From Synechococcus sp. HK01-R (lineage in GTDB: Bacteria; Cyanobacteriota; Cyanobacteriia; PCC-6307; Cyanobiaceae): a stretch of DNA of 64,000 nt. Shown here piece after piece: positions 30,759 through 36,027 of the stretch. The stretch spans positions 1,116,001-1,180,000 of the forward strand of contig NZ_CP059059.1 of NCBI RefSeq assembly GCF_014217855.1, given 5' to 3'. Each line of letters starts with the position of its first letter. Positions within the stretch are counted from its first letter, which is position 1. The position numbers and the translations under genes were made by a program. The notes beneath the pieces were generated by a model that was not told the DNA's origin, made no database searches, and saw only the letters and a program-made list of their open reading frames with translations.

Positions 30759-31100
30759 GTGCCCCTCTTCATCAAGCACGAGACGTTCACTGCCGCGACG
30801 GCGACACTCCCTGTGGAGCAGCGCCGAAGCCATCTGGAAGCCCATGGCCAGTGGGTTGAGCAACTCCGGGCGGCGGGGATGGTGATCTCGAGTGGCTTCC
30901 TTGTGAATCGTGAGGGCCAACCTGGCGGCGGGGGGCTGTTGGTGCTGAAGGCTGAGAGCTATGACCAAGCCCTGGCCCTTGTGCAGAAGGATCCGATGAT
31001 TGCCCGCGGCCTTGTGCACTGGACCTTGGAGGAATGGCGGCCGGTGGCGGGGCTGCCGCTCATTGACGCCCCGTCTCCAGCTCCAGGCCGGCCCGACTGA
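30759..31100 (+). CDS. YciI-like (YCII domain) protein
   Basis: The 113-residue protein has the YCII pattern: R-x-HLEAH-x-x-W near 23-32, GMVISSGFLVN, GGGGLLVLKAESYDQALALVQKDPM and a closing GLVHWTLEEW. Relatives are small dimeric enzymes of mostly unknown role. The start is GTG, 17 bp after the Fd-GOGAT stop, so it is likely co-transcribed. Its 3' end overlaps tolC by 41 bp. Confidence 0.8.
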   Translation: MPLFIKHETFTAATATLPVEQRRSHLEAHGQWVEQLRAAGMVISSGFLVNREGQPGGGGLLVLKAESYDQALALVQKDPMIARGLVHWTLEEWRPVAGLPLIDAPSPAPGRPD

Positions 31101-32496
31101 GATTCCATTGCTGGATCGCCGTGGCTTCAGCGCTGCGGGCCGCTTGCAGATCGCGTTGGGCCAGCAGCAGCTCGGTGACCGGCGCGATGCCAGCGCGATA
31201 GCGCAGCTGGGCATCCCGCACCGCTTCTTCGGTGGCGATCACGGCTTCCCGGCTTGAGACCATGGCGGCCTTGGCGCTGCGGTGGGTGTGCCAGAAGGTC
31301 TCCACCGCCTGGATGATCGTCTGTTTGCGTTGTTCCAGCAGCAAGCGTTGTTGGTCGACCTGACTGCGCGCCAGGGCTGCACTCTGGGCTGACAGCCCCC
31401 CGTCGAACAGGGGTTGGCGCAGGGTGAGCAACACGCCGTAGTCGTAAAAGCTGCCGCTGGCATTGCCGCTGCTGTTCAACGTTGGCAACTCCAGTTCACC
31501 GGCGACGGGCACATTGCTGACGCGGCCACCGCTGTTGAGCACCGGCACATTCAGGTTGTCGCCACTGATGCCGCCGCCGAGCAGGAGCCCCACCCGCGGC
31601 AGCATCGTGCCCTGGGCTGCTTGCACTTTCGCTTCCGCAGCAGCCTGTGCCTGCGCGATCACCTCCAGCGCCGGGCGATTGCGGGTGGCGGCCTCGATCG
31701 AGGCCTGCAGCTGCAGCGGCCATGGCGACTGGGCCAAGAGGGGATCGCTGGCTTCCACCCTCTGATCGGCCGGAAGGTTGAGCAATCGGGCCAGGGCGCT
31801 GGCGGCGATCGCCCGGGCCGAGCGGGCGGCGCTGAGTCCGCGCTGGTCGGTGGCGAGCAGGGCACGAGCGCGGAACACATCGATGCGTGCGCCCAGTCCT
31901 CCATCCCGCAGCGCTTCCGCATCCTTGAGCAGTTCGCCGGAGAGGGCGATCGATCGCTGCCACACGGGGATCAGCGCATCGCTGAGCTGCAGGTTCAGGT
32001 AGGCATTGGTGATGGCGAACCGGCTCTGTCGCCGCTGCTCGGCGATCCGTGCCGCGGCGGCCTGATCGAGGGCCTTGGCCGCCGACAGCAGTGGTCCCCG
32101 CTCGAAGTCGATCAGGGGGTAGGTGAGTGCGAGCCCGAGATTGCCGAAGCTGTTTTGGATGACTGCGTAGCCATCACTGCCCAGATCAAGATTCAGGTCG
32201 CCGATGGTGGGCAGATTGGAAATAAAGCCAACCGAGCTGCCCACTTGAGCCCAGCTGCCGAGGCCCACAACATCGAGCTTCGGCAGAAACAGGCTGCGGC
32301 TGAGTCCCACCCCAGCCGTGGCGGCTTCCTTCTCGGCCTCTGATTGTTGGAGGGCGAGCGATGCATCCATGCCTCGCTCGAGGGCCTGATCAAGGCTGAG
32401 GCCAAGCGGTTGCGGCTCGGCATTGGCGGGCAGACAGGTCGAGGCCGCCATGAGCAGGGAGGCCAGGACTCGTCGTCGGAGCATGCCGGTTGACAT
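31060..32496 (-). CDS. TolC-family outer membrane efflux protein
   Basis: The 478-residue protein has a signal peptide (about 1-26, cleavage after ANA). Two homologous TolC halves follow, with helices rich in Ala/Gln (QSEAEKEAATAGVGLSRS; AEAKVQAAQGTMLPRVGLLL) and beta segments (ALTYPLIDFERG; LLTLRQPLFDGG). It would form the outer membrane channel of a tripartite pump. It is divergent from the HlyD adaptor with a 62-bp spacer, so both probably serve the same pump. Confidence 0.9.
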   Translation of the reverse strand: MSTGMLRRRVLASLLMAASTCLPANAEPQPLGLSLDQALERGMDASLALQQSEAEKEAATAGVGLSRSLFLPKLDVVGLGSWAQVGSSVGFISNLPTIGDLNLDLGSDGYAVIQNSFGNLGLALTYPLIDFERGPLLSAAKALDQAAAARIAEQRRQSRFAITNAYLNLQLSDALIPVWQRSIALSGELLKDAEALRDGGLGARIDVFRARALLATDQRGLSAARSARAIAASALARLLNLPADQRVEASDPLLAQSPWPLQLQASIEAATRNRPALEVIAQAQAAAEAKVQAAQGTMLPRVGLLLGGGISGDNLNVPVLNSGGRVSNVPVAGELELPTLNSSGNASGSFYDYGVLLTLRQPLFDGGLSAQSAALARSQVDQQRLLLEQRKQTIIQAVETFWHTHRSAKAAMVSSREAVIATEEAVRDAQLRYRAGIAPVTELLLAQRDLQAARSAEATAIQQWNLSRAGLELETGRQ

Positions 32497-32500
32497 GTCA
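32491..32500. promoter_or_regulatory. TGACATGTCA palindrome over the tolC start codon
   Basis: This 10-bp perfect palindrome contains the tolC start codon (minus strand, 32494-32496) and lies at the edge of the 62-bp divergent tolC/hlyD spacer. A repressor site for both genes is possible, but chance occurrence is not excluded. Confidence 0.25.
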
Positions 32501-32558
32501 GGGGAGGCGCTGAGCCATCCGAAAACGGCGTTACCCTACGCGCGGTTTTCAATCGCAG

Positions 32559-33794
32559 ATGGGTGCTCTGCTGCATCGGTGCTGGCCCATTGCTCTCGTC
32601 AGCGGAGCGACGGCCGTGTGGGCGGTGTTACCCGCGATCGATGTTGAGGTATTCGGTGCGGCTGTGTTGTTGGCCCCTGGCAATCGACGGGGGCTTTACA
32701 GCCGCACTCCAGGCCAGGTTCTGGATCTGAGCGTCCCAGTCGGTGCTCGTGTTGCCCGCGATCAGTTGCTCGCCAGGCTCGATCGCATCGATCAGGCTGC
32801 TGGCGGTGGCCCTGTTCCCAAGGGGCAGCCTCAGGCGCTCGATCGTCAGCTGGAGGCTAATGCTGAAAAACAGCGGGGTTTGGTTGACCAACTGTCCGCC
32901 AACAGTTCGGAGCTGGTGGCTTTGCGCCAGCAGATCGGCACCTTGCAGGTGAGTAATCAACCTGTGGGGGAGCAACTTGCTGCGCTGGAAAGCCTTCGCC
33001 AGAAGAAGGTGATCCCCACCTACAGCCCCCTCTGGGTGGCCGCGCAGGATCTCTACCTGGGCAACAAGGCAGCGATCCGCTCGCTGGAAGCCAAGATGGC
33101 TCAGTTGCAGGCTAATCGAGGGCTCCTTCAGGCACAGCAGGCCCAGTTGCGGGCGACCCGGGCAGAACTGGAGGCTCAGAATCAGGCGCTTGAGTTGCGT
33201 GCTCCCGCGGCTGGCCGACTGGTGAGTTGGGCTGTGGAGGAGGGGCAGCCCGTGCTCCCTGGTGAGCGTCTTGGAACGCTGGCACTGGAGCAGTCCCGCT
33301 CGGCTTCTCGGCAGGCGATGGCCCTGTTCACAGAGGCTGATGCAACGCGGCTTCGGATCGGCGAATCGATCGAGATCGAACCGATCCTGCAGAGCCGCAA
33401 TCAATACGGCGGCACGGCCCAGCGCTACGGCGGCGTCGAAGGAACGATCAAGGCGATTTCGCCCACACCGCTGGATTCGGCCGCCCTCGCCAGTGTGGTG
33501 GGCGAAGCGGACCTGGCGGTGTCGCTGGTGGCGCGGGCCCGGCAGGAAGCCTATGGAGAAGGTGGTGATCCGCTGGCGATTCTTCCGGGTAAGGCCACGG
33601 CGCCTCTGATGCTCGTGCGAGTGGAACTGGAATCAGCCAGCACTCCCTCAGGATTGCGCTGGAGTGGCGGCCGGGGCCCGGATCTGCGGTTTGAGGCCGG
33701 TCAGCCCGCAGAAGCTAAGGCTTCAGTTGAACGACGTTCTCTGTTGAGCTACGCCCTGCCGTTTCTGCGCTGGATTGCCGGCTTCAATCGCTGA
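32559..33794 (+). CDS. HlyD/AaeA-type membrane fusion adaptor
   Basis: The 411-residue protein starts with one membrane helix (about 10-27). Lipoyl-like half-motifs are TPGQVLDLSVPVGARV near 49-64 and LRAPAAGRLVSWAVEEGQPV near 213-232. Between them lies a long Gln/Leu-rich coiled coil (about 90-210) of the type that contacts TolC. It would bridge the FUSC-type inner membrane protein to TolC. Confidence 0.88.
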   Translation: MGALLHRCWPIALVSGATAVWAVLPAIDVEVFGAAVLLAPGNRRGLYSRTPGQVLDLSVPVGARVARDQLLARLDRIDQAAGGGPVPKGQPQALDRQLEANAEKQRGLVDQLSANSSELVALRQQIGTLQVSNQPVGEQLAALESLRQKKVIPTYSPLWVAAQDLYLGNKAAIRSLEAKMAQLQANRGLLQAQQAQLRATRAELEAQNQALELRAPAAGRLVSWAVEEGQPVLPGERLGTLALEQSRSASRQAMALFTEADATRLRIGESIEIEPILQSRNQYGGTAQRYGGVEGTIKAISPTPLDSAALASVVGEADLAVSLVARARQEAYGEGGDPLAILPGKATAPLMLVRVELESASTPSGLRWSGGRGPDLRFEAGQPAEAKASVERRSLLSYALPFLRWIAGFNR

Positions 33795-33817
33795 ATCTTT
33801 GATCTCCCAGCCTCCCC

Positions 33818-34021
33818 ATGTCCCGTCGTTCCCTTGCATCATCCAGTTGGTTGAACGCCCTGCGTCAGCCGGCGCCGTGGATCGCCCTCGTGTTGCTCGC
33901 GATCACGGTGTTCAGCACGGCACCAAGGCTCTGGTTCTGGTTGGCGCTGCTGATGATTGTGCTGCTGGTGGGCTGGGTGCAGGCGCTCAAGCATGACCCG
34001 GCCGATCCCCATGGCGACTGA
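33818..34021 (+). CDS. 67-residue two-helix membrane protein (AaeX-like by size and position)
   Basis: The protein has two hydrophobic segments at about 20-33 and 38-57, and basic ends. It begins 23 bp after the adaptor and overlaps the FUSC gene start. AaeX/DUF1656 proteins of aaeXAB operons have the same size and neighbours. I cannot confirm sequence homology by eye. Confidence 0.7.
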   Translation: MSRRSLASSSWLNALRQPAPWIALVLLAITVFSTAPRLWFWLALLMIVLLVGWVQALKHDPADPHGD

Positions 34022-35120
34022 GGCCCAGTGGCTCGGTTTGCGGGCGGCGCTGGCGATCGGTCTGGCTGCGAGCATCACGCGGCTGATCTGCCTCACGCTC
34101 GGTCTGGGCGACATCCCCGCCGCCTACGGCGTGGTGGTGGGCGTGTTGGTGGTGCGTCCTGATTTCTGCCGTTGGCCTGCGCTGATCTACCCGGTTCTGC
34201 TGGTGATCGCTGGTGTCGCGATGGCCGTTGGGCTCAGTGTGCGCATGATGTTTCCCGATGCCCCCCAGGTGTGGTGGTTCGGCCTCGTTGGGGTGGTGAT
34301 GCAGCTGTTGGCGGTGGCGCTGCCAGCCAAGCTGGCGTTGCTCACCAATGTGGTGGCCGCTGCAGGGGTGCTTCCCCTGCTTGATCTGTCCGCCTCGTGG
34401 GCTGACTGGGGCCATCAGATGGAGGCGATTGCCATGGGTCTGGCCATTGGCACTGCTCTGCAATGGGGTCTGACGCCATCCGGTTACGGCGCTCCGGCAC
34501 CGCCCAGTGGGCCGGAAGGAGAGGATCTGCCCCTGCCGGAGCGGTACCGGTTGGCTTTCACAAGCTGGAGCTTTTGGCGCAAGCTCGTGCTGGCGGCGTT
34601 CGCCCTAGCGATTGGCGTCGGCCTTGGAACGCAGACGCCGAAGTACCTCTATTTCGGTGTGGTGTTGCTGCTCAACGACAGCATCGGCGCGACCCTCGCT
34701 CGAGTGCGTGATCGGATGGTGGGTGTCAGCCTCGGGGTGCTGATGCCCCTGCTGGTGTTCAACAGCATCGGTCTCAACAGCGTGGGGGTGGCCCTGGCGA
34801 TGGGCGGGACCGCTGCCCTTGTGGCTGCCTTGAATCTTGGCCCCTACCTGCGCACGGCGCTGATTTCGAGCGGTGTGGCTTTTGCCGGCTATGGGCCGCT
34901 CGTGGCCTGGTACATCCCGAATCGGTGGATTGATTACTTGATCGGTAGCGGCCTCGCCCTTGTTTCAGGGATTCTTCTTTTCCCCCATTCGTCGCTCAGC
35001 CGATATCGGCGGCTACTGGAGGTGTCTGACAACGACAGCCATGAACAGCTTCGCCGTTTATATCCGGCGGCAAGGGAGGAAGCGGCCTGGCTCGGTCAGC
35101 GCCTTCCGCCTGTCGATTGA
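33993..35120 (+). CDS. FUSC-type aromatic acid exporter family membrane protein
   Basis: A 375-residue inner membrane protein with two sets of about four to six helices split by a polar loop (PPSGPEGEDLPLPERYR). The first set opens LGLRAALAIGLAASITRLICL and has YGVVVGVLVVRPDF. The second has the FUSC-like GVVLLLNDSIGATLARVRDRMVG, where the Arg/Asp pattern is typical. It likely exports small, perhaps aromatic, anions. ATG 33993 overlaps the small gene by 29 bp; ATG 34011 is an alternative. Confidence 0.78.
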   Translation: MTRPIPMATEAQWLGLRAALAIGLAASITRLICLTLGLGDIPAAYGVVVGVLVVRPDFCRWPALIYPVLLVIAGVAMAVGLSVRMMFPDAPQVWWFGLVGVVMQLLAVALPAKLALLTNVVAAAGVLPLLDLSASWADWGHQMEAIAMGLAIGTALQWGLTPSGYGAPAPPSGPEGEDLPLPERYRLAFTSWSFWRKLVLAAFALAIGVGLGTQTPKYLYFGVVLLLNDSIGATLARVRDRMVGVSLGVLMPLLVFNSIGLNSVGVALAMGGTAALVAALNLGPYLRTALISSGVAFAGYGPLVAWYIPNRWIDYLIGSGLALVSGILLFPHSSLSRYRRLLEVSDNDSHEQLRRLYPAAREEAAWLGQRLPPVD

Positions 35121-35148: not shown

Positions 35149-36027
35149 TCAGCGCGGATGCGATGCCATCAGTTTCCTCACTTCGCCCGCGTGATAACTG
35201 CTGCGGGTGAGTGGTGTGCTCACCACCTGCAGGAAGCCGAGCTCCTCTTCGCCATGGCGGCGGAACGCTTCGAACTGCTCTGGCCGTACGAAGCGGTCCA
35301 CCGGTAGGTGTTTGGGGCCAGGGGAGAGGTACTGGCCGATGGTGACGATGTCGACGTCATGGCGGCGTAGGTCGGCGAGGGTCTCGAGCACCTCTTGATC
35401 GGTTTCGCCCAGACCCACCATCAGCCCTGACTTGCTGTAGACCCTTGACCAACCATGGCGAACCCGTTCCAGCAGTTCCAAGGATCGGCTGTAGACACCC
35501 TGGGGCCGGGCTTTGCGATACAGGCTGGGAACGGTCTCGATGTTGTGGTTGAGCACGTCTGGACCAGCGTCCAAGACCGTGGCCAGTGCCTCCCAGTTGC
35601 CGCAGAAATCGGGGATCAGCAGTTCGATCGTGGTCTGGGGTGAGCGTTGCCGCACCTGTTCGATGCAGGCCACGAACTGGCTGGCCCCGCCGTCGCTGAG
35701 ATCGTCGCGGTTCACTGAGGTGATCACCACGTGCTTGAGGCCAAGCCGCGCCACGGCTTCCCCGAGGCGCTCGGGCTCGGTGGGATCCAGCTCTCGAACA
35801 CTTTTGTCGAAATCAATGTCGCAGTAGGGGCAAGCGCGGGTGCAGCCGGGCCCCATGATCAGAAACGTGGCGGTGCCGCCGGCGAAGCATTCGCCGATAT
35901 TCGGGCAGCTGGCCTCCTGGCAAACCGTATTGAGCCTGAGGTCGAGAAGCAGGTCAGCAACAGCGCCGATGCGCTCGCGCTGCGGCGCTTTCACGCGCAG
36001 CCACTCAGGTTTCAAGGTGGAGGTCAT
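35149..36027 (-). CDS. lipA: Lipoyl synthase
   Basis: This radical SAM enzyme inserts two sulfurs into octanoyl groups of lipoate-dependent enzymes. The auxiliary cluster motif [12 protein letters not shown] and the radical SAM motif CTRACPYC are both present. The C-terminal RSSYHAGE supplies the conserved Ser ligand. It has 292 residues and the ATG at 36027 gives a normal start. Confidence 0.96.

Follow-up and report, generated by a model that had tools for sequence, protein, structure and literature searches.

We propose that four adjacent genes of Synechococcus sp. HK01-R, tolC1, hlyD1, sm1 and fusC1, encode a dedicated TolC-adaptor-FUSC exporter that would carry small organic anions across the whole envelope, a reading to which we assign a probability of roughly 75%. 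In the window, i.e. the whole analysed stretch of 64,000 nucleotides from a 2.48 Mb single-contig genome, the gene order is gltB, yciI-like, tolC1 (reverse), hlyD1, sm1, fusC1, lipA (reverse), with the following features:

30759..31100, plus strand: yciI-like gene (PF03795, 44.5 bits), left border of the insertion site
31060..32496, minus strand: tolC1, outer-membrane efflux channel, 478 aa, signal peptide-like N terminus
32497..32558, no strand: divergent intergenic region of 62 nt, presumed shared promoter region
32559..33794, plus strand: hlyD1, periplasmic adaptor, 411 aa
33818..34021, plus strand: sm1, 67-aa two-helix membrane protein with the motif APRLWFW, not DUF1656
34011..35120, plus strand: fusC1, compact FUSC-type transporter, 369 aa, two predicted six-helix bundles
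35149..36027, minus strand: lipA, lipoyl synthase (Radical_SAM, 88 bits, and synteny), right border of the insertion site

The four open reading frames reported in the earlier note (channel, HlyD adaptor, 67-aa two-helix protein and FUSC-type protein) were all present at the place claimed. Its parts list thus stood, but tolC1 lies on the minus strand, divergent from the hlyD1-sm1-fusC1 operon with 62 nt between both start codons, and the start proposed for fusC1 (33993) had to be replaced. This gene most likely begins at the ATG at 34011, a start that is conserved in close relatives and gives an 11-nt overlap with the sm1 stop codon; a longer reading frame beginning at 33957 has only a TTG start. 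The 3' ends of tolC1 and the yciI-like gene overlap as well. The region between tolC1 and hlyD1 shares the conserved core GAGCCATCC.AAAACGG.G.TACCCTA.GCGCG with two relatives, and a promoter scan of it found no sigma-70 consensus.

The domain content of the channel and the adaptor would suit a TolC-dependent pump. TolC1 contains the two OEP repeats of a TolC-type channel (167.6 bits, Pfam cut-off 22), its score against TIGR01844 being 105.9 bits, under the cut-off of 225, and the host genome has just one further full OEP protein; the cassette has its own outer-membrane channel despite the presence of this second one. HlyD1 matched both Biotin_lipoyl_2 and HlyD_3 over the Pfam cut-offs. Its AlphaFold model (pLDDT 77.7) displays the features of an HlyD/MFP adaptor, namely an N-terminal anchor helix, lipoyl and barrel domains and a helical hairpin with long helices at 93-148 and 157-210 (about 55 residues per arm), and a C-terminal hydrophobic helix is conserved. 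In a Foldseek search with this model MacA and EmrA, which are adaptors of TolC pumps, were the best matches (E to 3.7e-18).

FusC1 belongs to the FUSC superfamily according to a FUSC_2 domain (PF13515) over the curated cut-off, with a modest score of 30.2 bits (cut-off 25.6) that covers residues 198-318 in the C-terminal half; ArAE_1 reached 9.8 bits, below its cut-off. FUSC_2 was matched in all 12 family members tested (E<=1), and FusC1 is the only FUSC_2 match in the host genome. The assignment of the membrane protein to FUSC in the earlier note was thereby borne out, and of the profiles it had expected in the four proteins, FUSC_2, HlyD_3/Biotin_lipoyl_2 and OEP were found over cut-off but DUF1656 was not.

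FusC1 is compact and devoid of the large soluble domains of larger FUSC relatives of 690-746 aa. Its length is 347-394 aa in every intact relative, compared with 690-703 aa in annotated proteobacterial FUSC proteins and 718-746 aa in FUSC proteins of other cyanobacterial families. An AlphaFold model of moderate confidence from 12 sequences (pLDDT 73.9, pTM 0.71) predicts two times six helices joined by a short linker. The C-terminal half has its FUSC_2 match independently of the structural comparison and also matched half-size FUSC proteins by profile with a probability of 93-96%. By hhalign the N-terminal half could not be matched to FUSC families (probability 2-3%), and homology between the two halves was not detected (1.7%). 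Plain Foldseek of the model against the PDB gave nothing significant, the top rows being MFS transporters with TM-scores <0.2 that are not meaningful, and phmmer found no match among PDB sequences. VIA structural matching of each half of the model among the Foldseek candidates placed plant ALMT anion channels in all eight best positions, followed by RND pumps and an SLC9 protein at Z 6.2. Residues 1-160 aligned with 7voj (Z 9.4, 3.6 A, 156 residues) and residues 172-369 with 7vq7 (Z 7.7, 4.8 A, 195 residues), Z values that helical bundles may reach by chance. In the model each half thus looks most like an ALMT channel, and since such Z values are attainable by chance and plain Foldseek gave no significant match, the ALMT/FUSC assignment of the N-terminal half is tentative. 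An ALMT subunit is one bundle plus a cytosolic helical domain, and two identical subunits form a dimer, whereas FusC1 would be a fused tandem without that domain.

ALMT proteins are channels, and the resemblance of both modelled halves to them would suit a channel or envelope-stress device instead of a pump, in which FusC1 serves as an ALMT-like anion channel and lets organic acids, e.g. excess photosynthate, leave passively via HlyD1 and TolC1. The lack of an ATPase, of an RND-like periplasmic domain and of the soluble domain of larger FUSC proteins would agree with this. However, bacterial FUSC systems have been described as efflux pumps (PMC7682875) and an ungated passive leak through the envelope would be costly, and we consider such a channel unlikely. 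In the exporter that we favour, FusC1 would form its own pseudo-dimer from two ALMT/FUSC-like six-helix bundles and move small organic anions out of the cytoplasm. Fold and synteny suggest that the long hairpins of HlyD1 could build a periplasmic tube docking on a TolC1 trimer, through which the substrate would be released outside.

The small gene sm1 is protein-coding on comparative grounds, because Sm1 shares 53-96% protein identity with 11 relatives and dN/dS was <1 in every pair compared. No Pfam family was found over cut-off in Sm1. It consists of two hydrophobic helices, whose hydropathy peaks near residues 19-35 and 38-54, folded into a hairpin; the turn carries P-R-x-W-F-W, which is near-invariant, and the family motif is PPxLWFW. 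With the Sm1 profile a second family, Sm2 (motif NPPELWFW), was found in many genomes, and the two are homologous (hhalign 96.8%, E 3e-10). Judged by sequence, Sm1 belongs to an unnamed family specific to cyanobacteria. The AaeXAB-like reading of the earlier note pointed to DUF1656/AaeX for the 67-aa protein, an identification that failed: no HMM match was obtained (a DUF1656 control protein gave 76.8 bits), and hhalign comparison with aligned sequences of AaeX plus 11 other DUF1656-type proteins gave a probability of 0.3%. DUF1656 (PF07869) was found in none of 292 cyanobacterial genomes, with E. coli as the positive control. The length of 67 aa that Sm1 shares with AaeX is a coincidence, since its relatives vary in length between 51 and about 75 aa.

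This bears on the description of the locus as AaeXAB-TolC-like. TolC, HlyD, a two-helix protein and FUSC do occur in one conserved locus, but a relation to AaeXAB beyond the FUSC fold was not supported. Up to E 10 no match of the locus to the AaeA (NF007850) or AaeB (NF007916) models was listed, and the AaeX model was likewise unmatched, while an Azospirillum FUSC/HlyD/DUF1656 operon, used as proteobacterial control, matched all three (256 bits for AaeA, 174 bits for AaeB). As the three models fail here and succeed in the control, the locus is, as far as profiles can tell, AaeXAB-like by analogy only, alike in anatomy and not AaeXAB by membership. The likeness to the E. coli p-hydroxybenzoate exporter consists in a small two-helix protein, an HlyD adaptor and a FUSC-superfamily transporter. 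The small protein of the cassette, however, is unrelated, the adaptor is longer and from another branch, the FUSC protein has about half the size, and the order is hlyD-sm-fusC with its own divergent tolC. A true AaeXAB relative that exports p-hydroxybenzoate and carries a diverged AaeX would account for the matching set of parts and the FUSC_2 domain, and FUSC pumps are known to take aromatic acids (PMC7682875), but with an Sm1 that scores 96.8% against Sm2 and 0.3% against DUF1656, the unmatched models and a FusC1 of about half the AaeB-type size we regard it as improbable. MdtNOP models did not fit the locus either (MdtN NF007785 30.1 bits against a cut-off of 376; MdtO NF008510 no match).

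Among characterised systems, FUSC pumps like bucl8-fusCDE come nearest, and four-component FUSC pumps are already known. In bucl8-fusCDE, which gives resistance to fusaric acid and is induced by p-hydroxybenzoate, a FusC of 733 aa and an adaptor are joined by an outer-membrane channel and a small protein of 67 aa (PMC7682875). The earlier note had stressed that TolC is part of the same locus; this is correct but not special, because both fuaABC and bucl8-fusCDE have been described with a local outer-membrane channel (PMC7682875). With these fusaric-acid pumps the cassette shares a dedicated channel, an adaptor and a FUSC transporter in one locus, and with bucl8-fusCDE it further shares a small protein of 67 aa, encoded by a gene that overlaps the one for FUSC, but it is without their DUF small protein, 733-aa FusC and adjacent LysR regulator. 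The small DUF protein of bucl8-fusCDE is presumably a DUF1656 protein.

HlyD1 is, in profile comparisons, nearer to cyanobacterial adaptors modelled as TIGR03794 (NHLP bacteriocin secretion) than to AaeA. TIGR03794 was its best NCBIfam match with 87.6 bits, below the cut-off of 156.2, which is exceeded by sibling adaptors with a small protein. This raises the possibility that HlyD1 serves an ABC exporter in secretion of NHLP/Nif11-type RiPP peptides and that the FUSC gene is an unrelated neighbour, the more so as marine Synechococcus possess such systems (G026; PMC2887384). Against it, none of the TIGR03797 matches listed for the genome places an NHLM-type ABC exporter near 1147-1151 kb, and among the adaptors over the TIGR03794 cut-off (n=16, from 13 genomes) only 2 adjoin NHLM-type ABC exporters, compared with 14 that have a small-protein gene following them; we therefore hold peptide secretion to be very improbable. 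Apparent true NHLP loci with the order ABC, HlyD, ABC were seen at G026:C1:2387983-2392951 (L170) and G269:C1:767768-776793, and the remaining adaptors over the TIGR03794 cut-off in these genomes were mostly FUSC- or tolC-linked. True NHLP adaptors lie beside peptide ABC exporters without a small protein (one case, L170), whereas HlyD1 pairs with FUSC. Since TIGR03794 was built from NHLP clusters (PMC2887384), an exact functional use of its name in cyanobacteria is doubtful. The naming is probably too broad, and for many of the cyanobacterial adaptors over its cut-off a function in efflux is likely.

The exporter reading agrees with the conservation of the locus as a unit. Among the 31 genomes of the genus, 6 have a FusC1 homologue of >400 bits, and such homologues are also present elsewhere in the family, in other genera. 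The order tolC1 (reverse)-hlyD1-sm1-fusC1 was found in all 30 genomes with enough flank, which represent 12 genera of one family; sm1 was detected by profile only in four of them. An arrangement kept so widely is far beyond chance, and the expectation that the four genes would stay together in related genomes was confirmed. Two of the 30 have a disturbed tolC-hlyD border, with a 2.5-kb gap in L079 and transposase-like genes inside tolC1 in L081. In one metagenome contig (L038:6517-6892) tolC1 and fusC1 meet at their 3' ends, as though the genes between them had been lost or misassembled. Besides the four genes no neighbours common across genera were found, so that the flanks give no hint to the substrate.

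Four ARRANGEMENTS (A-D) involve the adaptor and the small protein, the present cassette being A. In B, which occurs in most members of the genus and is missing from the genome of the window, hlyD2-sm2 stands opposite tolC2, in most loci with one or more half-size FUSC genes nearby; in L070 these encode 378 and 321 aa with an own FUSC_2 match each. The B loci (L070-L074, L076, L078, L080, L082, L105-L118, L122) are paralogous to the cassette and often lie 1-4 kb from a second lipA-like gene. C consists of hlyD-sm and tolC with no FUSC in the flanks (L119, L120, L121, L158, L174), located between mutS2 and hemB in L120 and L174, and D, seen in three further cyanobacterial families (L155-L157), of hlyD-sm-FUSC in which FUSC is full-length. 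Adaptor and small protein are thus the constant pair across arrangements, and on this ground the small protein is presumably a partner to the adaptor. Sm1 would be a standing inner-membrane partner of HlyD1 that probably places or stabilises the adaptor on the transporter, similar to the presumed role of AaeX/FusD in proteobacteria, though the families are separate. More generally, we lean slightly towards the view that the PPxLWFW microproteins act as the obligate fourth subunit in one cyanobacterial adaptor clade, that they have an origin separate from AaeX/DUF1656, and that they track the adaptor and not the transporter, serving FUSC proteins (full-length, split or compact) and at least one other inner-membrane partner.

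Comparative genomics further indicates that the cassette is a horizontally mobile accessory unit that moves as one, since empty sites exist and a lipA remnant accompanies a relocated copy. Nine relatives (G006, G008, G010, G011, G019, G021, G022, G024, G027) have the empty site gltB-yciI-lipA with yciI directly by lipA, and the cassette sits exactly between yciI and lipA in G000, G018, G026 and G028. G008 carries it at another place, beside a decayed lipA fragment (residues 205-282; L168:4043-4276, identical to L032:9143-9376), with an intact lipA at the usual place; the most economical explanation is that a piece of the old neighbour travelled along with the cassette. In three genomes of two other genera (L075, L081, L094) it lies between genes that we take to be hoxY and hoxH of the bidirectional hydrogenase, and the fusC1 of L094 is broken into two frames. 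The Azospirillum HlyD-FUSC-DUF1656 operon (L125:1381-7180) is located just upstream of hydrogenase genes (HupU, nickel hydrogenase), which is probably a coincidence.

Cassette identity within the genus is patchy, about 74-96% between strains, which is a sign of recombination. Window positions 31000-32200 and 33400-34200 show 90-96% identity to G018 over a background of 74-86%, a mosaic of homologous recombination. Between close strains dS was 0.06-0.11 in sm1 compared with 0.6 in fusC; selection on RNA was considered as the cause of the low sm1 dS and rejected, as sliding identity shows patchy recombination tracts.

Its mobile accessory nature is easier to reconcile with a role of the cassette in tolerance of toxic acids, whether from the environment or self-made, than with housekeeping export. 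Aromatic or amphipathic carboxylates might be the substrate, a first guess for which the odds are a little short of even. Our literature search found no paper on FUSC pumps in cyanobacteria, nor was one combining HlyD, TolC and marine Synechococcus found in the open-access literature, and picocyanobacterial efflux seems little studied.

While four-component FUSC pumps as such are known, the cassette with its compact FUSC transporter and unrelated small partner is a new form of them. The compact FusC1 may be a minimal FUSC form that suits structural work. Our work also defines an unnamed small-protein family, whose recurrence as a partner unrelated to AaeX is, beside the compact transporter and in place of any likeness to AaeXAB, the point of interest. 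It suggests that FUSC/adaptor pumps have gained a small inner-membrane partner at least twice, and they may therefore need one.
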